From assembly GCF_006716425.1 (NCBI RefSeq), contig NZ_VFOZ01000003.1:62001-126000 (forward strand): 64,000 nt of DNA, read 5' to 3'. The notes beneath the pieces are model-generated. The model worked only from the letters and a program-made list of their open reading frames with translations, ran no database searches and was not told the DNA's origin. The stretch's first letter is position 1. Each line of letters opens with the position of its first letter. This stretch comes from Actinoallomurus bryophytorum. GTDB taxonomy: Bacteria; Actinomycetota; Actinomycetes; Streptosporangiales; Streptosporangiaceae. A program made the translations under genes and the position numbers. Positions 11,430 through 61,973 of this stretch are shown here, piece by piece.

Positions 11430-13315
<1,886 letters not shown>

Positions 13316-46742: not shown

Positions 46743-47531
46743 ATGGCCGAACTGACTGGCAAGACCGCGCTGGTGACCGGCGCATCGCGCGGAATGGGAC
46801 GAGGCATCGCCCAGCGGCTGGCCGCCGACGGCGCGCTGGTGGCCGTGCACTACCGCGGCGACAGCGACGCCGCCGAGGAGACGGTCTCCACGATCGAGCA
46901 GGCCGGCGGGACGGCCTTCCCGGTGCGCGCCGAGCTCGGCCTGGACGGCGACGTTGAGACGGTGGTCACCGGGCTGAGGGCCGGGCTGCGCGGGCAGCCG
47001 CTGGACATCCTGGTCAACAACGCCGCGTGCGGCAATCTGGACACCCTGTTCGCCGGCGCGATCGGACAGGTGACCCCGCGGCAGTTCGACGAGGTCTTCG
47101 CGGTCAACGTGAAGGCTCCGTTCTTCCTCATCCAGGCACTGCTGCCGCTGATGCGCGACGGCGGGCGCGTCATCAACATCTCCTCCCTCAGCGCCCGGGT
47201 CGCGGTGCCCCAGCAGATCGCCTACGCGATGACCAAGGGCGCCGTGGAGACCATGAGCCGGACGCTGGCGAAGGAACTCGGCACGCGAGGCATCACGGTG
47301 AACACCGTGGCGCCGGGCGCGACCGACACCGGCATCAACGAGTTCCTGCACGCTCCCGTGATCAGAGCCGGCATGACGGCCATCACCGCCCTCGGCCGGA
47401 TCGGCCGGCCGGACGACATCGCCGACGCCGTCGCTTTCCTTGCCTCGGAGGACGCCCGCTGGATCACGGCCAACACCCTCGACGCCAGCGGCGGCATGTT
47501 CCTCGGCCCTCCCTCCGCGCCGGTCGGGTGA
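46743..47531 (+). CDS. SDR-family oxidoreductase
   Basis: A 262-residue classical short-chain dehydrogenase: TGASRGMGRGIA cofactor loop, NNAA, the catalytic Ser in NISSLSA and YAMTK as YxxxK, with the PGATDTGIN strand before the substrate loop. FabG-like, so a 3-ketoacyl or ketone/alcohol substrate is likely, with NADPH favoured by the Arg after the Gly-rich loop. Located just after the SARP-type repeats; first gene of a set with a DUF998 and a hydrolase gene. Confidence 0.9.
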   Translation: MAELTGKTALVTGASRGMGRGIAQRLAADGALVAVHYRGDSDAAEETVSTIEQAGGTAFPVRAELGLDGDVETVVTGLRAGLRGQPLDILVNNAACGNLDTLFAGAIGQVTPRQFDEVFAVNVKAPFFLIQALLPLMRDGGRVINISSLSARVAVPQQIAYAMTKGAVETMSRTLAKELGTRGITVNTVAPGATDTGINEFLHAPVIRAGMTAITALGRIGRPDDIADAVAFLASEDARWITANTLDASGGMFLGPPSAPVG

Positions 47532-47690
47532 GCCGCCCGCCCAGGGAGCGGATCCCGGCTGCGGGCGGCCGGCGTCGGGCACCCGCCGGCGTCGTACCGA
47601 GAAGTCCGTCACCGCCCAGGCCGCCGGAAACCCCGCCGGCCGCGCAAAGCCGACCGCGATCTTCAGCCACCTGAAACCAGGGATCCGACG

Positions 47691-48401
47691 ATGACTCAGC
47701 CGACCGTCACACCGACCGGCAGCCATGGCGCGTGCTCGCCCGCCATCCGCCTCACCAGGTCACTCCTGGGCTACGGGATGATCGCGGGCCCGTTCTACCT
47801 GGTCATCTCGGTGACCGAGGGGTTGCTGCGCCCGGGCTTCGACTTCACCCGCCACGACTGGAGCCTGCTCAGCAACGGCTCCTACGGCTGGGTTCACATC
47901 ACCGACTTCCTCCTCACCGGGTTGATGACGATCGCGTGTGCCGTCGGGGTCCGGCGATCCCTGCGGCACGGGACGGCCGCGCGATGGGCGCCGAGGCTGA
48001 TCGGTGCCTATGGCGCCGGCCTGGTCGGCGGCGGTGTCTTCACCGCCGACCCCGCTTCCGGATTCCCGCCGGGGACCCCCGCCGACGCCCACACCGTCAG
48101 CTGGCACGGCCTGCTGCACCTGGCCTGCGGCGGAGTCGGGTTCCTGTGCCTCATCACCGCCTGCCTGGTCATCGCGCGCCGGTTCGGCACCGAAGGGCGG
48201 CGCCGCTGGGCCCTGTACTCCCGCGCCACGGGCGTGCTCTTCCTGGCCGGGTTCGTCTGCGTCGCCTCGGGGGCGAACGCGCCCTGGGCGACGCTGGCAT
48301 TCACGGCGGCCATCGTCATCGCCTGGGCGTGGGTGAGCGCCGTCAGTCTCCACCTGTACCGGCGAGCCCACGCCACCGACGACCCCGCAGGTGATCTGTA
48401 A
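47691..48401 (+). CDS. DUF998-family membrane protein
   Basis: A 236-residue protein with six predicted membrane helices: LGYGMIAGPFYLVISVTEG, ITDFLLTGLMTIACAVGV, LIGAYGAGLVGGGVFTADP, GLLHLACGGVGFLCLITACL and two more. The conserved GVFTADP and HGLLHL elements are typical of DUF998. Function unknown. It is 159 bp after the SDR gene and 51 bp before the hydrolase gene, so possibly co-transcribed with both. Confidence 0.85.
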   Translation: MTQPTVTPTGSHGACSPAIRLTRSLLGYGMIAGPFYLVISVTEGLLRPGFDFTRHDWSLLSNGSYGWVHITDFLLTGLMTIACAVGVRRSLRHGTAARWAPRLIGAYGAGLVGGGVFTADPASGFPPGTPADAHTVSWHGLLHLACGGVGFLCLITACLVIARRFGTEGRRRWALYSRATGVLFLAGFVCVASGANAPWATLAFTAAIVIAWAWVSAVSLHLYRRAHATDDPAGDL

Positions 48402-48452
48402 CCGCGGACACCACGGCGGCGCACCCATCTCCGATCTCCAGGAAAGGCAACG

Positions 48453-49229
48453 ATGAACCAGATCATCTCCAAGGACGGCACCCCCATCGCCTACGACCGC
48501 GCGGGCTCGGGCCCGGCGGTCATCGTGATCGGCGGCGGGCCGGTCGACCGGTCGGCCAACGACTCGCTGGCCGAACTGCTGGCAGAAGACTTCACCGTCT
48601 ACAACTACGACCGGCGTGGCCGGGGCGAGAGCGGGGACACCGCCCCCTACTCCACCGACCGCGAGTACGAGGACCTCGAAGCCCTGATCACCGAAGCGGG
48701 CGGCTCGGCGATGGCCTACGGCACCTCCGGCGGCGGGATGATCGCCATCGAGGCCGCGGCCCGTGGTCTGCCCATCACCAGGCTCGCGCTGTGGGAGGTC
48801 CCCTATGTCCTGCCCGGCGCCCGGCCGGCCATCCCCGCCGGCTATCGCGACGAGCAGTACGCCGCGCTCGCGGAGGGCCGCCACGGTGACATGCTCGAAC
48901 GGTTCTTCCTCGACGCGGCACTCATGCCGGCCGAGTTCGTCGCGGGCATGAAGGCCGGCCCGTTCTGGGAAGCGATGTTCCCCATGGCTCCCGTCCTGGC
49001 CTACGACGCCGACATCGCCGGGGACTTTTCCGTGCCGGACGCCCGGCTGGCCGCCATCAGCGCGCCCGCGATCGTCGTCGACGGCGCCACGACCCCGTGG
49101 ATCAGCGCCGCCGCCGAGGCGATCGCCGCCGCGCTGCCCGATCCGCTACGCCGTACTCTTTCCGGCCAGCCGCACAACGTCGACCCGGCGACCATCGTCC
49201 CCGTCATCACCGAATTCTTCACCGGCTGA
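48453..49229 (+). CDS. Alpha/beta-hydrolase
   Basis: A 258-residue alpha/beta-hydrolase: oxyanion strand VIVIGGGPV, DRRGRGES, nucleophile elbow YGTSGGG with S92, an acidic residue in VVDGATTPW and the catalytic His in SGQPHNVDP. Lacks a signal peptide. Substrate unknown; ester or lactone hydrolysis is likely. CAGGAAAGG is the ribosome site. Together with the SDR and DUF998 genes it forms the presumed AfsR-like target unit. Confidence 0.88.
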   Translation: MNQIISKDGTPIAYDRAGSGPAVIVIGGGPVDRSANDSLAELLAEDFTVYNYDRRGRGESGDTAPYSTDREYEDLEALITEAGGSAMAYGTSGGGMIAIEAAARGLPITRLALWEVPYVLPGARPAIPAGYRDEQYAALAEGRHGDMLERFFLDAALMPAEFVAGMKAGPFWEAMFPMAPVLAYDADIAGDFSVPDARLAAISAPAIVVDGATTPWISAAAEAIAAALPDPLRRTLSGQPHNVDPATIVPVITEFFTG

Positions 49230-49307
49230 GATCTTTCCGCGGACTCGAGGGGGCGCCATCGGCTGGTGATCAAGTCATCCGGAGATGTCCAGATCGTGGA
49301 CGGAGTG

Positions 49308-49337
49308 TTGACGTCTGTCCGATTTTGGATCCAAAAT
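49308..49337 (+). promoter_or_regulatory. Operon promoter with GntR-type palindromic operator over the -10
   Basis: TTGACG (49308-49313) as -35, an 18-bp spacer and CAAAAT (49332-49337) as -10. The perfect 16-bp palindrome ATTTTGGATCCAAAAT (49322-49337) covers the -10. FadR/FCD-type GntR regulators bind short palindromes of the TTGGATCCAA kind, and the last gene of this operon encodes such a regulator. This makes autorepression the simplest model. Confidence 0.75.
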
Positions 49338-49373
49338 TGCGGCTCCGCGTAGCACCCGTCGCGAGGAGACGCC

Positions 49374-50606
49374 GTGACCCCCTCGTCCGCCTACTCGTTC
49401 CTCAGCCATCTGGAGTGTTCCCGGACCGGCGAGCGCTACGACGCCGACGCCGTTCAGGGCACGTCCTCCGCCGGTGCGCCGCTGCTGGCCCGGTACGACC
49501 TGGAGCGCGTACGTGACACGGTGACCCCTCGGGACATCGCCGGGCGTGTGCCCGATCTCTGGCGCTACCACGAGGTGCTCCCGGTACGCGACGAGCGGCA
49601 CGTCGTCAGCCTCGGTGAGGGGATGACGCCGCTGCTGCCGATGCGCGCGTACGGCCGCCGCGCCGGCCTGACACGGCTGCTCATGAAGGACGAGGGCCTC
49701 GTGCCCACGGGCACCTTCAAGGCCCGCGGCGCCGCGGTCGGCGTGTCGCGTGCCGCCGAGCTGGGCGTCAAGGGCGTGGCCATGCCGACCAACGGCAACG
49801 CGGGTGCCGCGTGGGCGCTGTACGCGGCGCGGGCCGGGATGGGGAGCCTGATCGCCATGCCGGACGACGCGCCCCCGATCACGATGGCCGAGTGCCAGAT
49901 CGCCGGGGCGGAGCTGTACCGGGTCGACGGCCTCATCGGCGACGCGGGGAAACTGGTCGGCGCCGCCGTGGGGGAGCGGGCCGGCTACCAGGAGGTCTCC
50001 ACGCTCAAGGAGCCCTACCGCCTCGAAGGCAAGAAGACCATGGGCTACGAGATCGCCGAGCAGCTCGGCTGGCGGATGCCCGACGTCATCCTGTACCCCA
50101 CCGGCGGCGGCGTCGGCATCATCGGCATCCACAAGGCGCTGCGCGAGATGCGGGAGCTGGGCTGGGTCGAGGGCGACCTGCCCCGGCTGATCGCCGTCCA
50201 GGCCACCGGCTGCGCGCCGATCGTCCGGGCGTTCGAGAAGGGCGCCAGGGAGAGCGAGCCGTTCGCGAACGCCCGTACCGTCGCCTTCGGCATCACCGTG
50301 CCCAAGGCGCTGGGCGACTTCCTCGTGCTGGACGCGGTCTATGAGACCGGTGGCACCGCGATCGCGGTCACCGACGAGCAGCTCCTGGCCGCGCAGGCCG
50401 AGCTCGCCGAGCTGGAGGGCGCCTTCATCTGCCCCGAGGGCGCGGCCTGCTTCGCCGCGCTCGAGCCGCTGCGGGAGTCGGGCCGGATCGGCGCGGACGA
50501 GGAGGTCGTCGTCCTCAACACCGGCACGGGCGTGAAGTACCCCGAGACCGTACGGGTCGACGTGCCGCTGCTCGCCAAAGACGGCCGCATCCCGGGCCGG
50601 GGCTGA
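49374..50606 (+). CDS. Threonine synthase-like PLP enzyme
   Basis: A 410-residue fold-type II PLP enzyme. It has the N-terminal threonine-synthase signature (LECSRTGERYDAD, truncated zinc-less head), the Schiff-base lysine K116 in TGTFKARG, the phosphate-binding loop PTGGGVGIIGI and a C-terminal ECPEGAA-type segment (FICPEGAAC). As part of a catabolic operon with an amide hydrolase and a peptide-type importer, a lyase role (threonine/serine dehydratase-like or homoserine-phosphate lyase) is as likely as threonine biosynthesis; the housekeeping gene would normally lie with hom and thrB. First gene behind the operator. Confidence 0.82.
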   Translation: MTPSSAYSFLSHLECSRTGERYDADAVQGTSSAGAPLLARYDLERVRDTVTPRDIAGRVPDLWRYHEVLPVRDERHVVSLGEGMTPLLPMRAYGRRAGLTRLLMKDEGLVPTGTFKARGAAVGVSRAAELGVKGVAMPTNGNAGAAWALYAARAGMGSLIAMPDDAPPITMAECQIAGAELYRVDGLIGDAGKLVGAAVGERAGYQEVSTLKEPYRLEGKKTMGYEIAEQLGWRMPDVILYPTGGGVGIIGIHKALREMRELGWVEGDLPRLIAVQATGCAPIVRAFEKGARESEPFANARTVAFGITVPKALGDFLVLDAVYETGGTAIAVTDEQLLAAQAELAELEGAFICPEGAACFAALEPLRESGRIGADEEVVVLNTGTGVKYPETVRVDVPLLAKDGRIPGRG

Positions 50607-50610
50607 GAAA

Positions 50611-52158
50611 TTGGATCCGGTCGAGCGCGACCATCCGGGCGGGCGCCGCCGCACCGTCCTCGCCTGCCTGGCGGCCCTCGCCACGCTGGCCACCGCGGCA
50701 TGCGGCATCCACCCGGCCACCGCGGGGCGGGACCCCGGCACCCTCGTCATCGACACCGCGAACTACCCGTCCACCCTGGACCCCGGCAAGCAGTACGACG
50801 CCGACACCTACGCGGTGTACCGCAACATCTTCGACCAGCTCCTGCGCCGGAACCCCAGGACCCAGGCCCTGGTGCCCTGGATCGCCACCTCCTGGCGGCA
50901 GACCGACGCGACGACCTGGCGGTTCGCGATCCGCCGCGACGTGAGGTTCAGCGACGGCAGCCCGCTGACCGCCGTGGACGCGGCCTTCAGCATCAACCGG
51001 ATCCTGGACAAGAAGTTCGCCAGCCAGCAGTTCGCGAACTTCTCGATGATCAGCAAGGCCACCACCGACGGCGCCGACCTGGTCATCCACACCGCACGGC
51101 CCGCGCCGACCCTGCTGACGTACCTGACGACCCTGTCGGTGGTCCCGCAGCACTACGTGGAGAAGGCCGGTGAGCAGAAGTTCGCCGCCAAGCCGGTCGG
51201 CTCCGGCCCGTACATGCTCGAGTCGGCCACCGCGGGCTCCCAGGTCGCGCTGAAGGCCAACCCGCTCTGGTGGGGCCCGCGTACGAGCGTGCGCGCGGCG
51301 GTGTTCCGCGCGGTGCCGAGCGTCGCGAGCCGCGTCGTCGACCTGCAGTCGCGCAAGGCGGACCTGGCCACCACGCTCACGCCCGACGCCGCCGACCAGA
51401 TCAAGCGCGACCCCAAGCTCGCCGTCCTGTCCACGCCCACCGAGCGGATCGCCTACCTGGCCTTCAACACGATCAAGGGTGGCCCGGCGAACGACCCGCG
51501 CGTGCGGCAGGCCATCGCCGCCGCGATCGACTACAACGCGCTGATCAAGAACCTGCAGCGCGGCTACGCCAAGCCGATCAACTCGCTGCTCACCCCGCTG
51601 GCGTTCGGCTACGACAAGGCGCTGCCGGACGACCGGTACGACCCGGCCACCGCACGGCGACTGGTCGCCCAGGCGGGCGCCAAGGGCAGGACGGTCGTGA
51701 TGGACACCTCCCCGTCGTTCAACCCGCAGATCGTGCAGGCGATCCAGGCCGACCTGGCCGCCGTCGGCCTCAAGGTCCAGATCCGCAGCACCGACCAGCC
51801 GACGTACCTGAAGAAGGTCCAGGACCCCGGCCACAACTGGGGCTCGCTGCGCTTCGGCCGCTGGTCGTGCGCCTGCCTGGACGCCGACGGCGTGATCTAC
51901 CCGCTGTTCCACACCGGCGGGATCTGGAGCTCATATACGAACCCGGCCTTCGACAGGCTCGTCGAGCAGGCCCGAACGGTGATCGACCCCAAGCGGCGGA
52001 CCGCGCTCTACGACGAGGCGTTCCGGATCCTGGCCCGCGACCTGCCCGGCCTGGGCCTGTTCCAGGACTACGCGATCTACGGCGCGAACTCCCGCGTCAG
52101 CTGGACCCCGGACGCTCAGGAGAGCTTCTACCTCGACGCGATGAAGGTGCGCAGATGA
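50611..52158 (+). CDS. Oligopeptide-type ABC transporter substrate-binding lipoprotein
   Basis: A 515-residue SBP family 5 protein. The signal ends in the lipobox TAAC (about residue 30). The DppA/OppA fold follows: LVIDTANYPSTLDPGKQYDAD, WRFAIRRDVRFSDGSPLTAVDAAFSINRIL, VGSGPYMLE and YLAFNTIKGGPANDPRVRQAIAAAID. It delivers a peptide, nickel or peptide-like amide to the permeases that follow. The best start is TTG 50611, four bases after the upstream stop; its ribosome site is weak. The TTGGATCC at the start resembles half of the operon operator. Confidence 0.9.
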   Translation: MDPVERDHPGGRRRTVLACLAALATLATAACGIHPATAGRDPGTLVIDTANYPSTLDPGKQYDADTYAVYRNIFDQLLRRNPRTQALVPWIATSWRQTDATTWRFAIRRDVRFSDGSPLTAVDAAFSINRILDKKFASQQFANFSMISKATTDGADLVIHTARPAPTLLTYLTTLSVVPQHYVEKAGEQKFAAKPVGSGPYMLESATAGSQVALKANPLWWGPRTSVRAAVFRAVPSVASRVVDLQSRKADLATTLTPDAADQIKRDPKLAVLSTPTERIAYLAFNTIKGGPANDPRVRQAIAAAIDYNALIKNLQRGYAKPINSLLTPLAFGYDKALPDDRYDPATARRLVAQAGAKGRTVVMDTSPSFNPQIVQAIQADLAAVGLKVQIRSTDQPTYLKKVQDPGHNWGSLRFGRWSCACLDADGVIYPLFHTGGIWSSYTNPAFDRLVEQARTVIDPKRRTALYDEAFRILARDLPGLGLFQDYAIYGANSRVSWTPDAQESFYLDAMKVRR

Positions 52159-53129
52159 CGGCCGTCCTTCCGCGGCGGCGGCTCGCCGCCCTCCCCGCGA
52201 CACCGCGCTACCTCGCCGGCCGGATCGGGCAGGCGCTGCTCGCCCTGTTCGGCGTGGTCACGATCGTGTTCTTCGCGCTGCGGCTGTCCGGCGACCCGGC
52301 GCGGCTGCTGGTGCCCGAGGGCGCCACGGCCGCCGACATCGAGCGGGTACGCGACCGGCTCGGGCTGAACGACTCGCTCTGGCACCAGTACACGACCTTC
52401 CTCGGGCACGCCGTACGCGGCGACCTGGGCTACTCCTACGTGCAGAACCGTCCCGCGACCGCCCTGCTCGCCGAGCGGATCCCCTACACCGCGAACCTGG
52501 CGGTCGCCGCGCTGGTCCTGTCGCTGCTCTTCGGCGTCACGGTCGGCGCGGTCACCGCGCTGAGACGCGGCCGCTGGCAGGAGCGCGTGCTGATGCCGAT
52601 CGTGCTGGCCGGGCAGGCGATGCCGGCGTTCTGGACCGGCCTGCTGCTCGTCCTGGCGTTCTCGGTCGGCCTGCGGTGGCTGCCCTCCACCGGGTACGAC
52701 GGCCCGCTCTCGCTGATCCTGCCCAGCGTCACGCTCGCCTCGCTCTCGGCCGCCGCCATCGCGCGGGTGACCCGCGGGGCGATGCTCGAACAGCTCGCCC
52801 AGGACTACGTGCGCACGGCACGTGCGAAGGGTGCCGGGACCTGGCGGCTGGTCACCCGCCACCTCGCCCGCAACACCGCGATCCCGGTGCTCACCGTCGC
52901 CGCCCTGGAGCTGGCGAACCTCCTCGGCGGCGCGGTCGTCACCGAGGTCATCTTCGCCTGGCCGGGACTCGGCCAGCTCACCGTGCAGTCCGTGGCCGCG
53001 CGCGACTTCCCGGTGGTGCAGGCGATCGTCCTGCTCGCCTCCGCCGTGTACGTCGTGGTGAACCTGGCCACCGACCTGCTGTACGGCGTCATCGACCGGC
53101 GCGTGTCCACCCGAGGAGATAGCGCATGA
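52155..53129 (+). CDS. ABC transporter permease, DppB type
   Basis: A 324-residue membrane protein with six helices, first at ALLALFGVVTIVFFALRLSGDPA, and the EAA loop around LAQDYVRTARAKGAGTWRLVTRHLARN. DppB-type permeases pair with a DppC-type partner in di- and oligopeptide import. Its ATG overlaps the binding-protein stop (ATGA) and its own stop overlaps the next ATG, so the set is translated as one unit. Confidence 0.93.
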   Translation: MTAVLPRRRLAALPATPRYLAGRIGQALLALFGVVTIVFFALRLSGDPARLLVPEGATAADIERVRDRLGLNDSLWHQYTTFLGHAVRGDLGYSYVQNRPATALLAERIPYTANLAVAALVLSLLFGVTVGAVTALRRGRWQERVLMPIVLAGQAMPAFWTGLLLVLAFSVGLRWLPSTGYDGPLSLILPSVTLASLSAAAIARVTRGAMLEQLAQDYVRTARAKGAGTWRLVTRHLARNTAIPVLTVAALELANLLGGAVVTEVIFAWPGLGQLTVQSVAARDFPVVQAIVLLASAVYVVVNLATDLLYGVIDRRVSTRGDSA

Positions 53130-53989
53130 ACGCCAGGTCACGCCTCACCGTCCCCCTCGTGGTGATCGGCCTCTACCTGGTCGTGGCGGTCTTCGCGCCG
53201 CTGCTCGCCCCGCATGATCCGAACGCCGTGACGCTCGCGCAGCGGCTGCTGCCGCCCCAGGCGCACCACCTCATGGGCACCGACGCGCTGGGCCGCGACG
53301 TGCTGTCCCGCACCATGTACGGCACACGCGTGTCGCTGCTCGTCGCCGCCGCGGCGGTCGTGGTCGCGGGTGTCGTGGGCGTCGCCCTCGGGCTGGTCGC
53401 GGGCTGGCGGGGCGGCTGGCTCGGCGCCGTGATCATGCGCGTCGTCGACATCGTGCTTTCCGTCCCGTTCTTCCTGCTGGCCATCCTCGTCGTCGCGGTG
53501 CTGGGGCCCAGCCTGGTCAACGTCGTGGTCTGCCTGGCGATGGTGCGCTGGCCGAGGTACGCGCGGGTGGCCTACTCGACGACGCTGCAGACCCGGGGCC
53601 GCGGCTTCGTCCGCGCCGCCACCGCGACCGGGGCGCCGGGCCGGTGGATCGTGGTCCGCCACGTGCTGCCCGAGGTGCTGCCCGTGGCGATCGTGGTGGG
53701 CACGCTGGAGTTCGGCCTGATGGTGGTCTACGAGGCGTCACTGTCCTTCCTCGGCCTGGGTGTGCAGCCGCCGACCGCCTCCTGGGGCTCGATCCTGTCC
53801 GACGGGCAGCAGTACATCGCCACGGCCTGGTGGCTGGCCACGTTCCCCGGCATCGCGCTGTTCGTCCTCGTGCTCGCGGTGAACCTGCTGGGCGACGCCG
53901 CGCGCGACCGGCTGGACCCGGAGAAACGCGCGGCCGTCTCACGCCGCCGGCTGCTACGGCGAACCAGGACCGCGGAGGTGACGGCATGA
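53126..53989 (+). CDS. ABC transporter permease, DppC type
   Basis: A 287-residue membrane protein. It has the characteristic HDPNAV loop after helix one, HLMGTDALGRDVLSRTMYGTRVSL and the EAA loop RGFVRAATATGAPGRWIVVRHVLPE, and ends with LGLGVQPPTASWGSIL. Partner of the DppB-type permease; its stop overlaps the start of the SDR gene by four bases. Confidence 0.93.
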   Translation: MNARSRLTVPLVVIGLYLVVAVFAPLLAPHDPNAVTLAQRLLPPQAHHLMGTDALGRDVLSRTMYGTRVSLLVAAAAVVVAGVVGVALGLVAGWRGGWLGAVIMRVVDIVLSVPFFLLAILVVAVLGPSLVNVVVCLAMVRWPRYARVAYSTTLQTRGRGFVRAATATGAPGRWIVVRHVLPEVLPVAIVVGTLEFGLMVVYEASLSFLGLGVQPPTASWGSILSDGQQYIATAWWLATFPGIALFVLVLAVNLLGDAARDRLDPEKRAAVSRRRLLRRTRTAEVTA

Positions 53990-54765
53990 GTTTGGACTAC
54001 GGGGAGGAGTTCGCCGGCAGGCGGGTGCTCATCACCGGCGCGGCGGGGCTGATCGGACGGTGGACCGCCGAGGCCTTCCACGCGTGCGGCGCCGAGCTGC
54101 TGCTGTCCGACGCCCGCGCCGAGCCCCTGGCCGAGCTGGGGGAGACCCTCGGCGCGCACACGGCCGTCGCCGACCTGAGCACCGCCGACGGGGTGGAGCG
54201 CCTGCTCGCGGCGGTGGACGGCCGCTGGCCCACGGCCGACATCCTCATCAACAACGCCGGTGTCTACCCGCGCACGCCACTGGCGACGACCGAGCGGGCC
54301 GCCGTGGAGCGGATCCTCGACGTCAACGTCGTCGCGCCGTACCAGCTCGCGCGGCACGTCATCGCGACGATGACCCGTACGGGCGTCCGCGGCTGCGTGG
54401 TCAACATCGGCTCGGGGGCGGCCCGGCGCACGACACGCACGGGTGGCGTCTACGCCGCGAGCAAGGCCGCGCTGGAGATGCTCACCCGCTGGCTCGCCAT
54501 GGAGGCGGCCGAGGCGGGGATCCGGGTGAACACGGTCGGCCCCGGCTTCGCGCCCGGCAGTGAGGTCAGCGCCCTGCCCGGCGAGCACGTCGCCAAGATG
54601 CGCGCGGCGATCCCGCTGGGCCGTACGTCCGGGCCGCACGACGCGCCGGCGGCGATCCTGTGGCTGTGCTCCGGCGCGGCCTCGTTCGTCACCGGCACCA
54701 CGCTCGACGTCGACGGTGGCCGCACCGCCGGCGACTTCACCCCGACCGGAGTGAGCGCGACATGA
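53986..54765 (+). CDS. SDR-family oxidoreductase in the import operon
   Basis: A 259-residue classical SDR: TGAAGLIGRWTAEAF cofactor loop, NNAG, a Ser in NIGSGAAR and YAASK, and a C-terminal PGFAPGSE loop. It interrupts the transporter genes (between permeases and ATPases), so it probably acts on the imported compound or its hydrolysis product. The acid after the loop (LLSDAR) suggests NAD preference. ATGA overlaps on both sides. Confidence 0.88.
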   Translation: MSLDYGEEFAGRRVLITGAAGLIGRWTAEAFHACGAELLLSDARAEPLAELGETLGAHTAVADLSTADGVERLLAAVDGRWPTADILINNAGVYPRTPLATTERAAVERILDVNVVAPYQLARHVIATMTRTGVRGCVVNIGSGAARRTTRTGGVYAASKAALEMLTRWLAMEAAEAGIRVNTVGPGFAPGSEVSALPGEHVAKMRAAIPLGRTSGPHDAPAAILWLCSGAASFVTGTTLDVDGGRTAGDFTPTGVSAT

Positions 54766-55607
54766 CCTATCCATGGCCGGGAGGCACGCGGGCCGCGGTG
54801 TGCCTCACGCTGGACTTCGACGGCGAGTCGCCGTACCTGTGGCGCAGCCGGCAGACCCGCGGCCCGGCCGTCGGCGAGCTCGAACAGCGCCGCTACGGCC
54901 CGCGCCGCGGCATCGAGAACCTCCTGGCCATGATGGACGGGCTGGGACTGCGGGCGACGGTGTTCGTGCCGGGCTGGATCGCGGCCGAGTACCCCGGACA
55001 GGTCGCCGAGGTCCACCGGCGGGGACACGAGCTCGCGCTGCACGGCTGGTGCCACGAGCCGCCCACGAGTCTCACCGCCGACGAGCTGCGCGCGACCCTC
55101 GACCGGGCCGCGCGTACCCTCGCCGGGATCAGCGGCGAACGCCCCGCCGGCTACCGCTCCCCGAGCTGGGACATGACCGCGGAGGTGTTCCCCGTCCTGC
55201 GCTCGCTGGGCATCGGCTACGACAGCTCCCTGATGGGCGACGACCGGCCGTACGAGGTGGACGGCGTCGTCGAGGTCCCGGTCGACTGGGCGACCGACGA
55301 CGCCCCGTACTACCGCTACGTCGGCGGCGACCCGCGGCCCCCGACGCCGACCGGCCCGATCCGTGACGCCTGGGCCGCGGAGATCGCCGCCGCCAAGAGG
55401 TACGGCACGCTCTGCATGCTCACCGTCCACCCCTGGCTGTCCGGCCGTCCCGCACGTGTCGCGGTGCTGGAGGAACTACTCGCGCCGGTCGTCGCCGATC
55501 CCGAGGTGTGCGTTCCGACAGTGCGGGAGCTGGCCGAACACCACCGCACCACGACCGGCGGACGCGCGGTCCCGCTCGAGCGGCTGGGCAGGCCCGCCCA
55601 TGACTGA
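54762..55607 (+). CDS. Cytoplasmic polysaccharide-deacetylase-fold amidohydrolase
   Basis: A 281-residue NodB-fold protein without a signal peptide. Metal motif 1 is LTLDFDGES (Asp-containing), motif 2 is HELALHGWCHE, and motif 3 is RSPSWDMT; late VHPWL carries the catalytic His. This subgroup, with a cytosolic location and a HGWxHE pattern, includes cyclic imide hydrolases and HpPgdA-like enzymes rather than chitin deacetylases. In this operon it is likely to open a cyclic imide or remove an acyl group from an imported small molecule. It overlaps the next gene by eight bases. Confidence 0.85.
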   Translation: MTYPWPGGTRAAVCLTLDFDGESPYLWRSRQTRGPAVGELEQRRYGPRRGIENLLAMMDGLGLRATVFVPGWIAAEYPGQVAEVHRRGHELALHGWCHEPPTSLTADELRATLDRAARTLAGISGERPAGYRSPSWDMTAEVFPVLRSLGIGYDSSLMGDDRPYEVDGVVEVPVDWATDDAPYYRYVGGDPRPPTPTGPIRDAWAAEIAAAKRYGTLCMLTVHPWLSGRPARVAVLEELLAPVVADPEVCVPTVRELAEHHRTTTGGRAVPLERLGRPAHD

Positions 55608-56562
55608 GACGGCGTTCCTGAAGCTCAGCGACGTGCGGGTCGACTTCGGCGCCGGCCGCGAGGCGGTGCGTGGCGTCGACCTGACGGCGGACCGCGGCGA
55701 GACGGTCGCGCTCGTCGGGGAGTCCGGCTGCGGAAAGAGCCTCACCGCGCTCGCGCTCCTGGGCCTGCTGCCCGAGGGCGCGAACGCCTCCGGGTCGGCC
55801 GTGCTCGACGGCACCGAGCTGATCGGCAGGGACGAACGCGCCCTGCGCCGGATCCGCGGCGCCCGCGCCGGGATGGTGTTCCAGGACCCGATGAGCTCGC
55901 TCAACCCGACCACCCAGGTGGGCACGCAGATCGCCGAGGTGCTGGCGATCCACACGCGCATGGGCCGCTCCGAGCGGACGCGTCGTGCGGTCGAGCTGAT
56001 GGAGTCGGTGGGCATCCCGGATGCCGCGGCGCGCGCGAAGCAGATGCCGCACCAGCTGTCCGGCGGGATGCGCCAGCGCGTGATGATCTCGATCGCGCTG
56101 GCCGGAGAGCCGGACCTGCTGATCGCGGACGAGCCGACCACGGCGCTCGACGTGACCGTGCAGGCGCAGGTGCTCGCCCTGCTGCGCGAACGCGCCCGCG
56201 ACACGGTCCTGCTGTTCATCACCCACGACATGGGCGTGGTCGCCGAGATCGCCGACCGGGTCGCGGTGATGTACGCCGGCCGGGTCGTCGAGACCGGTCC
56301 GGTCCGCACTCTGCTGGACTCTCCCCGGCACCCGTACACGGCCGCGCTGCTGCGGTCGGTGCCCGACCCCGACCGCCCGATCGCCGGCGAGCTGCCGACC
56401 ATCCCCGGCCAGGTCCCCGCCGTCGGCGAGTACGTCGAGGGCTGCCCGTTCCGGCCGCGCTGCGTGCACGCGAGCGACCGGTGCCTGACCGGACCCGACC
56501 TGACCCCCGCCGGTGACGGCTCCGTCGCCTGCTGGCACCCGATTACGGAGGCCGCGTCATGA
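55600..56562 (+). CDS. ABC transporter ATPase, DppD type
   Basis: A 320-residue ATPase: Walker A GESGCGKS, Q-loop FQDPMSSLNP, signature LSGGMRQRV, Walker B LLIADEPTTALD and switch ITHDMG. The C-terminal oligopeptide/dipeptide domain contains GCPFRPRCVHASDRC, the Cys cluster typical of this family. Works with the DppF-type ATPase that follows. Confidence 0.94.
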   Translation: MTETAFLKLSDVRVDFGAGREAVRGVDLTADRGETVALVGESGCGKSLTALALLGLLPEGANASGSAVLDGTELIGRDERALRRIRGARAGMVFQDPMSSLNPTTQVGTQIAEVLAIHTRMGRSERTRRAVELMESVGIPDAAARAKQMPHQLSGGMRQRVMISIALAGEPDLLIADEPTTALDVTVQAQVLALLRERARDTVLLFITHDMGVVAEIADRVAVMYAGRVVETGPVRTLLDSPRHPYTAALLRSVPDPDRPIAGELPTIPGQVPAVGEYVEGCPFRPRCVHASDRCLTGPDLTPAGDGSVACWHPITEAAS

Positions 56563-57527
56563 CAGATGATCTTGTGGTGGCCGAGGGGCTGGTCAAGCGC
56601 TATCCCGTCCGTGGGCGCGGCGTGCTCACCGCCGTGGACGGCGTGGGCCTGCGCATCGAACGCGGCACCACGCTCGCGCTGGTCGGAGAGTCGGGCTGCG
56701 GCAAGTCCACCACCGGCCGCCTCCTCCTCGCGCTGGAGCGCCCCGACGAGGGCAGGGTCAGCGTGGCGGGCCGGCAGGCGTACGAGCTGGGCCGCCGTGA
56801 GCTGCGGACGCTGCGCCGCGCGATGCAGCCGGTGTTCCAGGACCCGTACGACTCGCTCAACGCCCGGATGACCGTCGAGCGGATCGTCGCCGAGCCGCTG
56901 CGGGTGCACCACACCGGCGGGGACACGCGCGCCAGGGTGCGTGAGCTGCTGGAGACGGTGACGCTCGCCCCCTCCCTCGCGGACCGCTACCCGCACGAGC
57001 TGTCGGGCGGGCAGCGCCAGCGGGTGGCGATCGCCCGCGCGATCGCGCTCGACCCGGAGTTCGTCGTCTGCGACGAGCCCGTCTCCGCGCTGGACGTCTC
57101 CGTGCAGGCGCAGGTGGTCAACCTGCTGCGGAGGCTCCAGGACGAGCGCGGCATCACCTACCTGTTCATCAGCCACGACCTGGCCCTGGTGCGCCATCTC
57201 GCCCAGCGGGTCGCGGTGATGTACCTCGGCCGGATCGTCGAGGAGGGCACGGCCGCTGAGCTGTTCGCCGACCCGCGCCACCCCTACACCCAGCTCCTGC
57301 TGGCCGCCGCCCCGCGCCCGCGCGTGCGCGACCGGCCCGCGGCGGTCACCGCGCTCGGCGAGCCGCCCAGTGCCCTCGGCGGGCACACGGGCTGCGCCTT
57401 CGCCCCGCGCTGCCCGCTCGCGACCGACCGATGCCGTACCGAGGACCCGGCGCTGCGGGCACTGCCGGGCGCCGGGAGGAAGGCCGCCTGCCACTACGCC
57501 GAGACGGCCCAGGCCGGTGCCGCATGA
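56559..57527 (+). CDS. ABC transporter ATPase, DppF type
   Basis: A 322-residue ATPase: Walker A GESGCGKST, FQDPYDSLNARM, signature LSGGQRQRV, Walker B VCDEPVSALD, ISHDL, and a C-terminal CAFAPRCPLATDRC cluster. Completes the five-component importer. Its stop overlaps the penicillin-acylase start (ATGA). Confidence 0.94.
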   Translation: MTDDLVVAEGLVKRYPVRGRGVLTAVDGVGLRIERGTTLALVGESGCGKSTTGRLLLALERPDEGRVSVAGRQAYELGRRELRTLRRAMQPVFQDPYDSLNARMTVERIVAEPLRVHHTGGDTRARVRELLETVTLAPSLADRYPHELSGGQRQRVAIARAIALDPEFVVCDEPVSALDVSVQAQVVNLLRRLQDERGITYLFISHDLALVRHLAQRVAVMYLGRIVEEGTAAELFADPRHPYTQLLLAAAPRPRVRDRPAAVTALGEPPSALGGHTGCAFAPRCPLATDRCRTEDPALRALPGAGRKAACHYAETAQAGAA

Positions 57528-59740
57528 GCCTCCCGGAGGGCGTGACGATCACCCGGGACGAGTACGGCGTTCCCTCCGTCGAGGCGGAGACCGAGACGCT
57601 CGCCTGGTTCGGGCTGGGGTGGGCGGCCGCCGAGGACCGCCTGTGGCAGCTGGAGTACGACCGCCGGCGCGCGCGGGGGAGATGGGCGCAGGTCGTCGGC
57701 CCGTCCGCGCTCCCGTCCGACCGGCTGGCGCGCCGGCTCCGCCTGGCCGACGCCGCCGAGCGGGACCTGGCGGCGATGGATCCGGTGACGGCGGCGGCCT
57801 TCCAGAGCTACGCCGACGGGGTGAACGCCTTCGTGGGGGAGTCCGGCCTGCCGCCGGAGTACGAGGTCGGCGGAGTCGCCTGGGAGGAGTGGAGCCCGCG
57901 GGACTCCGTGCTGGCGTTCAAGATCCGGCATGTGCTGATGGGCGCCTGGCAGTACAAGATCGCCCGAGCGGTGCTGCGCGCCCGGTTCGGCGCGGACGTG
58001 GCGGACGCCCTGGACCCGCGCCCGCTCCCCGGCATGCGGGTGACCGTGCCCCCGCTGGGACGCATCCCGCGCGAGGACCCGCGTGCCGCGCTGGTCGAGC
58101 GGGCACGCGAGGACGTCGAGGACGCCGCCGGGCACCTGGGCTTCCTCGCGGAGGTGGAGGCCGGATCCAACGCGTGGGCGATCGGACCCGGCCGTACGAG
58201 CTCCGGGAAGCCGTTGCTGGTCAACGACTCCCACCGCGGCCTCGACACCCCGAACACCTACTGGCAGGCCCATCTGAGCTGCCCGGAGTTCACCGTGTCG
58301 GGCGCCACGTTCCCCGGCCTCCCCGGCTTCCCGCACTTCGGCCACAACGGCCGCGTCGGCTGGGCGATCACCAACGCCGCGGGCGACGCGCAGGACCTGT
58401 ACGTCGAGCACTTCCGTGCCGGAGGCACGGAGGTGCGCACGGCCACCGGCTGGGAGCCCGTGGTGCCGCGCGAGGAGCGCATCGCCGTACGGGGCGGTGA
58501 CGAGCACACCGAACTCTGCTGGCAGACCCCGAACGGCCCGGTCGTGCACGGCGACCCGGCCGGTGGCGCGGCACTGTCGCTGCGCTGGACCGCCGCGGAC
58601 CGCGCCTGCGAGCAGTTCGGCGTGCTCCGGCGGATGCTCGTGGCCGGTGACGTCCGCGCCCTGCTGGACGGGCAGGAGGGCTGGGTCGACCCGCTGAACA
58701 ACCTGGTCGCCGCCGACGTCGACGGGCACCTGGGCTACCTGCTGCGCGGCGAGCTGCCCGCGCGCGCGAGCCTGGCGCCGGCGCAGGTCCCGGTGCCCGG
58801 GTGGGAGAGCGGGTACGCCTGGCGCGGACGGGTGCCGTTCGCGTCGATGCCGAGGTTCGAGGACCCGCCCGAGGGCGTCATCGTGACCGCCAACAACACG
58901 GTGACGGCGGCCGAGTACCCGTTCGTCTCCCACTCGATGAACGACTGCTACCGGGTCGAGCGGATCCACGAGCTGGCCGCGTCGGCGGAGGCCGCGGGCG
59001 CCGCCGACATGGTCGGCTGGCAGGGCGACACGGTGTCCGTGGCGGCCCGCCGCTGGGCCGGGCTGCTCGCGGGCCGCGGCCCGTACACCGGTGCCGCCGA
59101 GCGCGCCCGTTCGGTGATCGCCGCCGGTGGCGGCGACCTGAGCGCCGAGAGCGGCGTCGGCCTGGTGCATGCCTGCTTCCGCCGGGCCCTGGCGCCGCGT
59201 GTCCTCGACGCCGAGGTCGGCGCCGCCGCGCGATCCTGGCTGATGGACACCGGCCTGCCCGGCGTACCGGTGCTCCTGCGGCGCTGGTTCGCCGCGCTCA
59301 CCTGGCCGGGAGAGGACGGCACCTGGCCGGCGGCCGCCCTCGGTGACGGCCTGCTGGCCGGCGCGCTCGAGGCGGCCTGGCACCAGGCGTGCGGCGACGG
59401 CGACGCACCGCAGCCCTGGGGGCAGGCGCACCGTACGGCCGCGCGCCATCCGCTGCACCCGGTGGCCGGCGCCCGTCTCGACCCGCCGGACGCGGGGATC
59501 GGCGGGGACAACGAGACGATCCAGAACGGCGCGTACGGCTGGGCGGAGGGCACGTCGTTCGCCATCACCAACCTGTCGGTGTACCGGCAGGTGCTGGACT
59601 TCGCCGACCTGGACGGGTCGGGCTGGGTCATCCCGGGCGGTGCGTCCGGCCGTCCCGGCGACCCGCACCACGCGGACCAGCTCGAACCCTGGAGCCGGCA
59701 CCGCCTGGTGCCGATGCGCCGGGGAGCGCGCCGTGACTGA
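57524..59740 (+). CDS. Penicillin acylase-family Ntn hydrolase, no signal peptide
   Basis: A 738-residue precursor. The alpha-like region (ITRDEYGVPSVEAETETLAWFGLGWAAAEDRLWQLE) leads to the autoprocessing site before S215 in the SNAWAIGPGRT motif, which becomes the N-terminal nucleophile. NDSHRG and FPHFGHNGRVGWAITNA are family hallmarks. Unlike most members it has no export signal, so it should mature in the cytoplasm on an imported substrate. The family cleaves N-acyl amino groups (beta-lactam side chains, acyl-homoserine lactones, N-acyl amino acids). Oligopeptide-type import plus this enzyme suggests hydrolysis of an N-acylated amino compound. Confidence 0.9.
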   Translation: MSLPEGVTITRDEYGVPSVEAETETLAWFGLGWAAAEDRLWQLEYDRRRARGRWAQVVGPSALPSDRLARRLRLADAAERDLAAMDPVTAAAFQSYADGVNAFVGESGLPPEYEVGGVAWEEWSPRDSVLAFKIRHVLMGAWQYKIARAVLRARFGADVADALDPRPLPGMRVTVPPLGRIPREDPRAALVERAREDVEDAAGHLGFLAEVEAGSNAWAIGPGRTSSGKPLLVNDSHRGLDTPNTYWQAHLSCPEFTVSGATFPGLPGFPHFGHNGRVGWAITNAAGDAQDLYVEHFRAGGTEVRTATGWEPVVPREERIAVRGGDEHTELCWQTPNGPVVHGDPAGGAALSLRWTAADRACEQFGVLRRMLVAGDVRALLDGQEGWVDPLNNLVAADVDGHLGYLLRGELPARASLAPAQVPVPGWESGYAWRGRVPFASMPRFEDPPEGVIVTANNTVTAAEYPFVSHSMNDCYRVERIHELAASAEAAGAADMVGWQGDTVSVAARRWAGLLAGRGPYTGAAERARSVIAAGGGDLSAESGVGLVHACFRRALAPRVLDAEVGAAARSWLMDTGLPGVPVLLRRWFAALTWPGEDGTWPAAALGDGLLAGALEAAWHQACGDGDAPQPWGQAHRTAARHPLHPVAGARLDPPDAGIGGDNETIQNGAYGWAEGTSFAITNLSVYRQVLDFADLDGSGWVIPGGASGRPGDPHHADQLEPWSRHRLVPMRRGARRD

Positions 59741-60422
59741 CCCCGCCACGGAGCTGGGCAGCCTGGTCCGCTCCGCGTACGAGGCGGTGCGCGAGGCCGT
59801 ACTGGAGCGGCGGCTGCTGCCCGGCGAGCGGGTGACGGTGCGGCCGTTCGCCGAACGCCTCGGCATCTCGCCGACCCCGGTCAAGGCGGCGCTGGCGATC
59901 CTCGAACGCGAGGGGTTCCTCGTCGCGCGCAAGCACTCGGGGTACTTCGTCGCCGAGTTAACGGCCGGCGACATGCGCGACATCTACGAGCTGCGATCCG
60001 CGATCGACGCCCTCGCCGCCCGCGACATCGCGCGGACGAGACCGGCCGCGCTACTGGCACGGCTCGGCGAGCTGGTCGAAGGTCAGCGCGCCGCGCTCGC
60101 GGCCGGGGACGTGGAGGCCTACGCGGAGCTGGACCGGGAGTTCCACGGGCTCATCTGGCAGGGCTCGGCCAACCGGCGGCTGACGGCCGTCGCGGACCTG
60201 CTGGGCGCCCAGCTGCGGCTCGGCCACAACCTGACCATCGCGGTGCCGGGGCGCCCGCAGGCGGGCCTGGAGGAGCACGGCGAGATCATGGACGCGCTGC
60301 TCGCCGGTGACACCGCGGCGGCCGAGCAGGCGACCCGCCGTCACGTCGCCCAGGTCATCCGCGCGCTGGAGAGGGTTCTGCCGCGGCGGAGCACCCTGCC
60401 CCACGAGGAGGCGGGTGCCTGA
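59733..60422 (+). CDS. GntR-family regulator with FCD domain
   Basis: A 229-residue FadR-subfamily regulator. The winged helix spans about residues 15-75 (VTVRPFAERLGISPTPVKAALAILEREGFL), the all-helical FCD ligand-binding domain the rest, with the metal/ligand helix AELDREFHGLIW and the His-containing EEHGEIMDALLAGD and RRHVAQVI. It senses a carboxylate in related proteins. GTG 59733 with GGGGAG upstream; overlaps the acylase stop. As the last gene of the operon it probably binds the palindrome at 49322 and is relieved by the pathway substrate. Confidence 0.92.
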   Translation: MTDPATELGSLVRSAYEAVREAVLERRLLPGERVTVRPFAERLGISPTPVKAALAILEREGFLVARKHSGYFVAELTAGDMRDIYELRSAIDALAARDIARTRPAALLARLGELVEGQRAALAAGDVEAYAELDREFHGLIWQGSANRRLTAVADLLGAQLRLGHNLTIAVPGRPQAGLEEHGEIMDALLAGDTAAAEQATRRHVAQVIRALERVLPRRSTLPHEEAGA

Positions 60423-60436
60423 TCCCGGCACCCGCC
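60410..60436. terminator. Hairpin terminating the catabolic operon
   Basis: Perfect 10-bp arms (GGCGGGTGCC at 60410-60419, GGCACCCGCC at 60427-60436) around a 7-nt loop, beginning within the GntR gene's last codons. It also lies just beyond the stop of the convergent aldo/keto reductase gene. Confidence 0.75.
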
Positions 60437-60442
60437 CCGCTG

Positions 60443-61450
60443 CTACCAGGCGAAGGCCTCCGGCGAGGGCCCCGGGCCCGGGAAGATCTCATCCAGGGAG
60501 GTCAGGAACTCCTCCGGCAGGTCCAGCCCGAGCGCGCGTACCGCCGAGTCGAGCTGCGCCCGCGTGCGCGGACCCACGATCGGACCGGTCACGCCGGGCC
60601 GGCTGAGCAGCCAGGCGAGGCCCACGTCGCCGGCCTCCATGCCGTACTTCTCACAGAGGTCCTCATACACCTGGATCCGCGCCCGCTGCTCCGGGTCGGC
60701 GAGCGCCGCCGCCGCGCGTCCACCCTTCGAACGCCCGCGGTCGCCGTCCCGCTCCTTGCGGATCACCCCGCCGAGCAGCCCGCCGTGCAGCGGCGACCAC
60801 GGGATCACCCCGAGGCCGTACGCCTCCGCCGCCGGGATGACCTCCATCTCCGCGCGGCGCTCCATCAGGTTGTACAGGCACTGCTCGCTGACCAGCCCGA
60901 GGGAGGAACGCCGCGCCGCCGCCTCGTTGGCCGCGGCGATGTGCCAGCCCGCGAAGTTGGAGGAGCCGACGTAGAGGACCTTGCCCTGCTGGACCAGGAC
61001 GTCCATCGCCTGCCAGATCTCGTCCCAGGGGGTCGCCCGGTCGACGTGGTGGAACTGGTAGACGTCGATGTAGTCGGTGCCGAGCCGCTTCAGCGAGGCC
61101 TCGACGGACCGGCGGATGTTGACCGCGGACAGCTTGTGGTGGTTGGGCCAGACGTCGCCGTCGCCCGAGGCCATGTTGGCGTTGACCTTCGTCGCCAGCA
61201 CGGTCTTGTCGCGGCGGCCACCGCCCTGGGCGAACCAGGTACCGATGATCTCCTCGGTACGGCCCTTGTAACTGTGCTCCGCGCCGAAGCCGTAGGCGTT
61301 GGCGGTGTCGAAGAAGTTGATCCCCACGTCGTGCGCGGCGTCCATGATCGCGTGGCTGTCGGGTTCGTCGGTCTGCGGACCGAAGTTCATGGTGCCGAGC
61401 ACCAGACGGCTCACGCTGAGCCCCGTACGTCCTAGCTGCACATAGTCCAT
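60443..61450 (-). CDS. Aldo/keto reductase
   Basis: A 335-residue TIM-barrel AKR. The catalytic tetrad is visible: Asp and Tyr in FDTANAYGFG, Lys in LATKVN and His in YQFHHVD. The NADPH site is reached by SRPGVTGPIVGPRTRAQL near the C-terminus. Substrate unknown. It converges on the catabolic operon and shares its terminator; no co-directional neighbour. Confidence 0.92.
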   Translation of the reverse strand: MDYVQLGRTGLSVSRLVLGTMNFGPQTDEPDSHAIMDAAHDVGINFFDTANAYGFGAEHSYKGRTEEIIGTWFAQGGGRRDKTVLATKVNANMASGDGDVWPNHHKLSAVNIRRSVEASLKRLGTDYIDVYQFHHVDRATPWDEIWQAMDVLVQQGKVLYVGSSNFAGWHIAAANEAAARRSSLGLVSEQCLYNLMERRAEMEVIPAAEAYGLGVIPWSPLHGGLLGGVIRKERDGDRGRSKGGRAAAALADPEQRARIQVYEDLCEKYGMEAGDVGLAWLLSRPGVTGPIVGPRTRAQLDSAVRALGLDLPEEFLTSLDEIFPGPGPSPEAFAW

Positions 61451-61582
61451 GGATCGAGCTAACCAGTTGAAGTGCGCTCAAAGTCAAACCGGCGCCCCGC
61501 CTGGCGGGGCGCCTGAGTTGGCGAGTCCACGGACTGACGCGGCTGGACGAACCGGCCGAACTCACCAGGTAAGCCGGCCGGA

Positions 61583-61623
61583 GGCCGATCCTTTGCGCGA
61601 TGCGCAGGACGCAAGGATCGGCC
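61583..61623. terminator. Hairpin downstream of the gene remnant
   Basis: Arms GGCCGATCCTTTGCG and CGCAAGGATCGGCC pair over 14 bp with one bulged T around a 12-nt loop. It would terminate the minus-strand remnant and looks like its surviving original terminator. Confidence 0.6.
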
Positions 61624-61650
61624 CCCGGTGTTCTTGGCGGTCGCGACGTG

Positions 61651-61908
61651 TCACCAGGCGTGAGCGGTGCAGACCTCGCCCTGGTTCGGGATCGCCAGAC
61701 ACGCTGCCCACGGTCCCCCGAAGTCGCCGACGGTGACGGTGTTGTAGTCACCGCTCGCGGGGAGGGTGCGCAGACCGGTGATGGTGTCGGCGCCGCTCCG
61801 GAGGAAGAGCTGGGCGACGCGCCTCCCGCGCCACCCTCCGGCGCCGACAGCGGCGCCCCCGGGGCGAACCGAGGTCGACGCGTTCGCCCGTCGACCCGAT
61901 GTAAGCAA
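61651..61908 (-). pseudogene. C-terminal remnant of a probable secreted protein
   Basis: The last 50 or so codons (FLRSGADTITGLRTLP, GDYNTVTVGDFGGPWAAC, PNQGEVCTAHAW-stop) look like real protein, with two Cys and the aromatic-rich pattern of an exported domain. The first 30 codons (Arg/Gly-rich) look like chance translation, there is no ribosome site, and no signal peptide. A terminator-like hairpin follows. Probably the 3' end of a gene whose front was deleted. Confidence 0.4.
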
Positions 61909-61973
61909 CGGGCGGCTTCAGACCTGCTTCGGCTCCGCTTCATCGACCGGTCCACCGTGGTGAGAAACGGAGA

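Follow-up and report, generated by a model that had tools for sequence, protein, structure and literature searches.

A candidate uptake-and-degradation operon for cyclic or amide-bearing compounds in Actinoallomurus bryophytorum and its counterparts on alphaproteobacterial plasmids

What kind of substrate, and what order of reactions, could bring an oligopeptide-type ATP-binding cassette (ABC) importer, a penicillin-acylase-type enzyme and several other enzymes under one regulator? This question is raised by an operon in the 9.47-Mb genome of the soil actinomycete Actinoallomurus bryophytorum (G000). The stretch of DNA analysed here, termed the window, has a length of 64,000 nucleotides (G000:C3:62001-126000). 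The operon comprises ten plus-strand coding sequences (CDSs) at positions 49374-60422 of the window. They encode, in this order, a threonine-synthase-like pyridoxal phosphate (PLP) enzyme, a solute-binding protein (SBP), two permeases (B and C), a short-chain dehydrogenase/reductase (SDR), a NodB-fold hydrolase, two ATPases (D and F), a penicillin-acylase-type N-terminal nucleophile (Ntn) hydrolase (PGA) and a GntR/FCD regulator (Table 1).

By analogy with a fungal pathway, the operon could be a substrate-inducible catabolic unit that combines import, oxidation by the SDR, ring opening by the NodB-fold enzyme and amide cleavage by the Ntn hydrolase; we give this reading slightly less than an even chance. 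The operon is not categorically new, as all its proteins can be placed in known families and its importer is an ordinary one. It is of more interest than the initial annotation of the window had stated, because it represents one form of a recurrent operon family in which the amide hydrolase is exchangeable.

Operon structure and control region

Adjacent genes overlap by 4 or 8 bp at eight of the nine junctions; only the first junction, between the PLP and SBP genes, is a 4-bp gap. The initial description of ten same-strand genes, nearly all of them overlapping, is thus confirmed. Pfam and NCBIfam profiles bear out the gene families named there, together with the picture of a single unit of importer and enzymes with its own regulator. 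The GC content at third codon positions (GC3) is 0.92-0.97 across the ten CDSs.

The promoter-like sequence TTGACG-18-CAAAAT, at 49308-49337, is the sole sigma-70-type match in a 15.5-kb region (47000-62500) where 0.3 matches are expected by chance. It is overlapped by the palindrome ATTTTGGATCCAAAAT (49322-49337). The whole genome has no second site within two mismatches, and none was present in 100 shuffled versions of the window. It occupies the identical position ahead of the PLP gene in Actinoallomurus iriomotensis (L051) and in genome G557 (L114). TTGACG is kept in both promoters as well, together with the probable ribosome-binding site and some sequence on either side of TGTCC; the remainder varies. 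Among eight Actinoallomurus genomes, an acylase match at E <= 1e-150 was found in three, and the same three have the palindrome once each. The palindrome was found, within one mismatch, in none of the five congeneric genomes without the operon acylase (one of the five is 87% complete); absence of the operon from these genomes was judged by the acylase, not gene by gene. In an SDR search of the genus, these three genomes matched at E <= 1e-120, and E values for G555 and G195 were 1e-61 to 1e-65. We infer from these sequence patterns that the GntR/FCD protein encoded by the operon may bind the promoter palindrome.

Of the strong terminator postulated for the operon end, a GC-rich hairpin stands (60410-60436). 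It has a perfect 10-bp GC stem with the gntR stop codon inside its loop, and a stability of -26.3 kcal/mol over a 41-nt stretch. There is no T run 3' of the stem, and the hairpin is missing from the calls of the terminator scan. Of the operon bounds proposed initially, 49308 corresponds to the -35 hexamer and 60436 to the end of the terminal stem.

Related operons in actinobacteria and on plasmids

The same gene order was sought in other genomes, as the initial annotation had proposed, and was found. All ten genes occur in order in A. iriomotensis (NZ_BSTJ01000005) and G557, with 81-96% identity (82-96% for A. iriomotensis); G553 has the same identities as A. iriomotensis, and the two were counted once. 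In G002, which belongs to another family of the same order, nine genes are collinear at approximately 50-70% identity, except for one 107-residue permease piece at 42%, and the PLP gene is missing. In the G002 operon, TTGACA precedes an inverted repeat that is imperfect, GATTGG-N8-CCAATC. Related loci in which the enzymes are absent or scattered would speak against a unit of this kind; this is largely not what is seen, because the gene order is conserved.

In 200 genomes of the order, with at most five candidates per genome scored in the first pass, the PGA was matched at E <= 1e-60 in 38 (own genome included). The best match apart from the own one is that of G002 (58% identity), followed by G109 (41%). 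The G109 neighbourhood (L048) has the PGA and weak ATPase matches; the rest of the operon was not found there. The NodB-fold enzyme was matched at E <= 1e-60 in 31 of 394 genomes of the class (own included). Of the 30 other matching genomes, 26 supplied the 27 neighbourhoods that we examined, two of which are short contigs (L098, L104); G240, G318, G502 and G536 lie outside this set, as do the second places in G548 and G475. The operon was found in none of these 27 neighbourhoods at E <= 1e-12. Four of them (L097, L103, L112 and L119, around 8300-13500) have a cluster of Lrp/AsnC regulator, NodB-fold, transporter, SDR and ApbA/PanE-like reductase genes, with AsnC (L119) and ApbA (L103) assigned by Pfam and the other members by eye. 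This cluster is perhaps a related pathway with a different importer.

A search of a plasmid collection with the NodB-fold enzyme gave 214 records, and seven neighbourhoods were read from the best 25 of the 214. They revealed alphaproteobacterial operons with the order GntR-SBP-B-C-SDR-NodB-GGT-D-F, where GGT is a gamma-glutamyltransferase-family gene. With the SDR as query, 21 records matched at E <= 1e-40. We examined 18 of them, setting aside H55, H64 and H69, whose species the set already contained. All 18 stretches have a NodB gene, and 15 have importer genes of the operon's type. The complete GGT-type order was found in eight (L053, L056, L057, L130, L133, L134, L135, L141). In L142 and L145 the SBP gene is placed after the ATPase genes, the L054 operon is cut off where the record starts, and that of L058 falls into two divergent halves. 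Three Neorhizobium operons (L143, L144, L146) have the order NodB-SBP-B-C-SDR-D-F, with a PGA gene next in L144 and L146. Rhizobium etli Mim1 (L132) has a PGA gene, two SDR genes and a NodB gene; the importer is absent. The PGA and GGT assignments are from Pfam for L144 and L053, and from similarity or record annotation for the others. The amide-hydrolase slot of the plasmid operons is thus mostly filled by a GGT-family enzyme, and in Neorhizobium galegae by a PGA of another clade. The gene set is therefore not unique to the A. bryophytorum genome, since Alphaproteobacteria repeatedly have versions of it with a GGT or with another type of PGA.

Several further features of plasmid loci were observed. 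Motifs similar to CTGAGATGTTAG are repeated ahead of the GntR gene in alphaproteobacterial operons (Table 1); these are possible operators, unlike the palindrome of the window. In three GGT-type operons, the ATPase genes of the importer are directly followed by a RidA-family gene (L054:5160-5555, L133:14238-14636, L135:14256-14657); such genes would suit imine or enamine products. A Variovorax plasmid (L059:4779-16957) has a PGA of 36% identity together with oligopeptide-type importer, GntR, amidase and transketolase genes.

Enzymes and importer

The metal-site residues of the NodB-fold enzyme (D18, D20, H94, H98, H223) are invariant in alignments of 9 and of 19 sequences. They correspond to D12, D14, H86, H90 and H247 of HpPgdA, by alignment and according to the HpPgdA study, in which the metal site is described and a small-molecule substrate is inferred (PMC3084791). 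A structural model is much nearer to the PuuE/HpPgdA small-molecule group than to CE4 polysaccharide deacetylases; identity is 25% to HpPgdA (3qbu), 20% to PuuE (3cl6) and 36% to 3rxz. No signal peptide was recognised by eye. The modelled grouping suggests a cyclic-imide/lactam-type C-N hydrolase. The tetrad of the SDR (N114, S143, Y156, K160) is invariant across the alignment.

S215 of the PGA falls opposite the first residue of the beta chain in alignments with solved structures, so that a G214-S215 self-cleavage site and an N-terminal Ser are present. The G214-S215 pair is kept in all 12 correctly translated rows of the alignment, to which G214, S215, H237 and N457 were mapped. The best solved relative is the glutaryl-7-ACA acylase 4hsr (295 bits); 35sz and a D-succinylase (7eby) are also among the closest. 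As the initial annotation had noted, the enzyme has no signal peptide by eye; its start lies approximately 8-10 residues ahead of the first conserved strand in the window, L051 and L047. Classical penicillin G acylase is exported and has a signal peptide.

In a PGA tree of 26 rows, the window enzyme groups with other Actinoallomurus enzymes and that of G002 with support 100/100, and the N. galegae and R. etli enzymes form a separate clade, in a data set with a long-branch warning. A single clade of window-type and Neorhizobium-type enzymes was rejected (p 9e-50), subject to the same warning and to the question having been framed after the first tree. The rhizobial enzymes of the second clade lie beside SDR and NodB genes in N. 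galegae (L144:11786-14140) and R. etli Mim1 (L132:3516-5852).

Five GGT-slot enzymes were aligned. T334, which we take to be the catalytic Thr of GGT, is invariant. The glutamyl-binding residues of Escherichia coli GGT are presumably R114, D433, S462 and S463. In all five rows, DFR is replaced by DFN, MDDF by MMWF or LMWF, and RPLSSM by RPLANM (L056 compared with 2e0w). Since the glutamyl-binding residues are replaced, these enzymes probably cleave an amide other than ordinary gamma-glutamyl compounds. The finding of three Ntn lineages at one step (the window PGA, the Neorhizobium PGA and the GGT family) suggests that an enzyme was recruited to this step three separate times.

The PLP enzyme has the motifs TNGNAGA, STLKEPYR and PTGGGVGI, as against STGNTAA, NSVNRYR and PVGNAGNI in another ThrC-like protein of the genome, which has the usual motifs and which we infer to be the biosynthetic enzyme. 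The window enzyme is probably an accessory, catabolic lyase. Its gene is a lineage-specific addition and not a core part, because it is missing from the G002 operon (the best PRK08197 match anywhere in G002 has 274 bits, against a cut-off of 303) and was not detected in the 18 alphaproteobacterial plasmid stretches at E <= 1e-10. On plasmids, relatives of the PLP gene were found in 21 records; the five contexts examined are diverse and give no substrate lead. A third threonine-synthase-like paralogue of the own genome (L049:9674-10918) lies beside a gene that by eye resembles a GroEL-type chaperonin.

The importer is complete as an oligopeptide type, with an SBP_bac_5 protein, two BPD permeases and two ATPases with oligo_HPY. 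In curated substrate-specific NCBIfam models (Dpp, Opp, Gsi, Nik) the SBP reaches at best 163 bits, against a cut-off of 600; the permeases and ATPases are below the cut-offs of their models among the matches listed. In a tree with seven other SBPs of the same genome and one Variovorax SBP, the operon SBPs stand together with a support of 83/98, which is not strong. The tree leaves out the fragment L134 and the distant L145b; with L145b the branch of operon SBPs is unresolved. The stronger matches among solved SBPs are 5u4o, AapF and agrocinopine-type proteins. The relatives include AapF and AccA; assignment of a ligand from these was dropped, as similarity among SBP5 proteins is too broad.

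Table 1. Features of the operon in the window and candidate operator motifs of related plasmid operons.
Feature	Position	Strand	Basis or remark
Promoter-like TTGACG-18-CAAAAT	49308..49337	+	Promoter scan; TTGACG and palindrome kept in L051 and L114 promoters
Operator-like 16-bp perfect palindrome ATTTTGGATCCAAAAT	49322..49337	.	Putative site for the operon's GntR/FCD regulator
Threonine-synthase-like fold-type II PLP enzyme, PRK08197 subfamily	49374..50606	+	NF006050 634.6 bits, cut-off 303
SBP, SBP_bac_5, lipoprotein by eye	50611..52158	+	PF00496 269 bits
Permease, OppB type	52155..53129	+	PF00528, PF19300
Permease, OppC type	53126..53989	+	PF00528, PF12911
SDR, intact N-S-Y-K tetrad	53986..54765	+	PF13561
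NodB-fold hydrolase, PuuE/HpPgdA group, putative cyclic-imide/lactam-type C-N hydrolase	54762..55607	+	Structural grouping, metal-site residues
ATPase, OppD type	55600..56562	+	PF00005, PF08352
ATPase, OppF type	56559..57527	+	PF00005, PF08352
PGA (Ntn hydrolase), predicted cytoplasmic	57524..59740	+	PF01804 555.6 bits; self-cleavage G214/S215
GntR/FCD regulator, putative autorepressor	59733..60422	+	PF07729, PF00392
GC-rich 10-bp hairpin at operon end, possible terminator without T run	60410..60436	+	Folding; absent from terminator-scan list
CTGAGATGTTAG-like motifs	L056:3995-4004; L057:3955-3964; L133:4592-4601, 4827-4836; L134:4832-4841; L135:4800-4809		

Upstream of the operon lies an alpha/beta hydrolase gene that ends at 49229. 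Beyond the operon, a convergent gene (60443-61450) has by eye the look of an aldo/keto reductase, and a similar gene trails the operon of A. iriomotensis (L051:13012-14001).

Possible pathway and comparison with known systems

If the operon is a substrate-inducible catabolic unit, the GntR/FCD protein would repress it at the palindrome until the substrate or a product binds. The importer would take up a small cyclic or amide-bearing compound. The SDR could produce an imide-like ring by oxidation of a ring alcohol or of a hemiaminal to the carbonyl, and the NodB-fold enzyme could hydrolyse the imide C-N bond to give a half-amide. The self-processing Ntn hydrolase (PGA here; GGT or the second PGA type in Alphaproteobacteria) would cleave the remaining amide to an acid and an amine. 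In Actinoallomurus the PLP enzyme may act later, on the amino product. The proposed order of SDR, imidase and amidase follows the nicotinate breakdown of Aspergillus nidulans (PMC9304392). There, the SDR HxnW converts 5,6-dihydroxypiperidin-2-one to an imide. HxnM, a cyclic imidase with HpPgdA as its nearest homologue in structure, has the proposed role of opening the imide to alpha-hydroxyglutaramate, and the amidase HxnN takes off the nitrogen.

The initial annotation had two hydrolases opening or deacylating an amide, which remains plausible and is supported; among its substrate options, a cyclic imide gains some support and an N-acyl compound such as an acyl-homoserine lactone (AHL) gains none. 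It also had the SDR and the PLP enzyme processing the amino or keto product; the PLP enzyme, however, is not a core part of the system. A wider claim is possible though doubtful: a recurrent, undescribed bacterial pathway with Opp-type import of small, ready-made cyclic hemiaminals, lactams or imides, followed by SDR, NodB-fold enzyme and cytoplasmic Ntn hydrolase, its last step filled independently by two PGA lineages and by a GGT lineage that lacks the glutamyl pocket. In open-licence literature we found no description of the gene set, nothing on imidases and a possible ligand beyond the Aspergillus analogy and HpPgdA, and no lead for HEHEAA as a ligand.

Several observations weigh against a catabolic unit of this kind. 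The gene set, gene order, palindrome and residues are shown, but the reactions, their order and the substrate are proposed, with the order of steps set by analogy alone. The HxnM reaction was itself proposed from accumulated metabolites, not from purified enzyme, in section 12 of PMC9304392, and HpPgdA is reported as inactive on allantoin and all else tried (PMC3084791). HxnN is an FAAH-like amidase; none is present among the ten window proteins, where the amide hydrolase is of the Ntn type. None of the 27 actinobacterial NodB neighbourhoods has a PGA or GGT gene. An importer set was found in one of them (L109), approximately 5.6 kb from the NodB gene and with 32-44% identity, and single weak matches were found in L099, L103, L104 and L107. 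On plasmids, L143 has the importer and no detected Ntn hydrolase, and L055 and L131 contain SDR and NodB genes and nothing else of the set. The link between SDR and NodB is one-sided, as NodB relatives often occur without the remaining set (L060). The Variovorax locus L059 has PGA, importer and GntR genes, with no SDR or NodB annotated.

Scavenging of peptides or cell-wall material is an unlikely explanation. An acylated or cyclic peptide or muropeptide would be imported, deacetylated by the NodB-fold enzyme and cleaved at its amide by the acylase, and the PLP enzyme would degrade the amino acid. The Opp-type importer and a PRK08197-type PLP enzyme would fit. So would the dipeptide-, murein-peptide- and oligopeptide-binding proteins among the solved SBP relatives, though they match more weakly than 5u4o, AapF and the agrocinopine type, and the report that genes for polyamine importers and D-Ala-D-Ala peptidases occur in the vicinity of HpPgdA-like genes (PMC3084791). 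However, there is no peptidase among the ten genes, the NodB model groups with cyclic-amide hydrolases, and the GGT-slot enzymes are without the gamma-glutamyl pocket; deacetylation also leaves unexplained the SDR relatives beside NodB in 18 of 18 stretches. It is improbable that the acylase serves to degrade N-acyl amino acids or AHLs and that the PLP enzyme takes over the amino acid set free. The penicillin-acylase family includes AHL acylases, and a PvdQ profile is weakly matched (38 bits), but its cut-off is 950, and an identity as AHL/PvdQ-type acylase was rejected on this ground; solved PvdQ gives 34 bits, against 295 for 4hsr, with 35sz and D-succinylase also among the nearest relatives. 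The enzyme's lack of a recognisable signal peptide also argues against this explanation, which leaves the SDR and NodB-fold enzyme without a role.

It is equally improbable that the operon detoxifies or salvages a natural product such as a beta-lactam or a glutarimide antibiotic. In favour, a cephalosporin-type acylase is the closest relative of the acylase in structure, and a cyclic-imide-type hydrolase could open a glutarimide. However, the presence of a full importer and of a regulator specific to the operon speaks for use rather than defence, and no resistance or efflux gene is present among the ten. The occurrence of relatives on many rhizobial plasmids suggests a common soil or plant compound. 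It is very improbable that unrelated genes, including a biosynthetic threonine synthase, lie together by chance. PRK08197 carries the name threonine synthase and the PLP gene is variable, but the genes overlap and share an operator, the separate ThrC-like gene lies elsewhere in the genome, and the conserved order already contradicts such a grouping, because the set is collinear in other genomes.

Should the catabolic pathway be confirmed, it would give a new cytoplasmic role to the two PGA lineages and the GGT lineage. Many genomes encode penicillin acylases and homologues of GGT, whose annotation often goes no further than the name; an operon in which Ntn hydrolases of separate lineages substitute for one another next to a constant importer, SDR and NodB-fold enzyme offers them a testable natural role. 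It also indicates small-molecule chemistry behind 'polysaccharide deacetylase' annotations, and helps to identify doubtful labels of 'threonine synthase' and 'gamma-glutamyltransferase'.

Among known systems, HxnW-HxnM-HxnN resembles the window operon in the joint presence of an SDR, a NodB-type imidase and an amide hydrolase, which there act serially on a six-membered cyclic amide. The fungal system has no ABC importer, whereas the window operon is bacterial, has an importer and lacks ring hydroxylases. The NodB-fold enzyme resembles the HpPgdA, PuuE and cyclic imide hydrolase group in fold, metal-site residues and the lack, by eye, of a signal peptide. The GGT-type alphaproteobacterial operons share a GntR regulator and the collinear SBP-B-C-SDR-NodB...D-F genes. 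They differ in that GGT lies between the NodB and ATPase genes, the regulator comes first, the PLP enzyme was not detected and RidA is next in some. The N. galegae PGA-type operon (L144, L146) shares the SBP-B-C-SDR-D-F-PGA order; its NodB gene comes first and belongs to another subclade, its PGA belongs to another clade, and an IclR-type gene adjoins it (Pfam, L144). The glutaryl-7-ACA acylase 4hsr and D-succinylase 7eby are among the nearest solved relatives of the window PGA, which has its self-cleavage site in common with 4hsr and, unlike these acylases, belongs to an importer operon.

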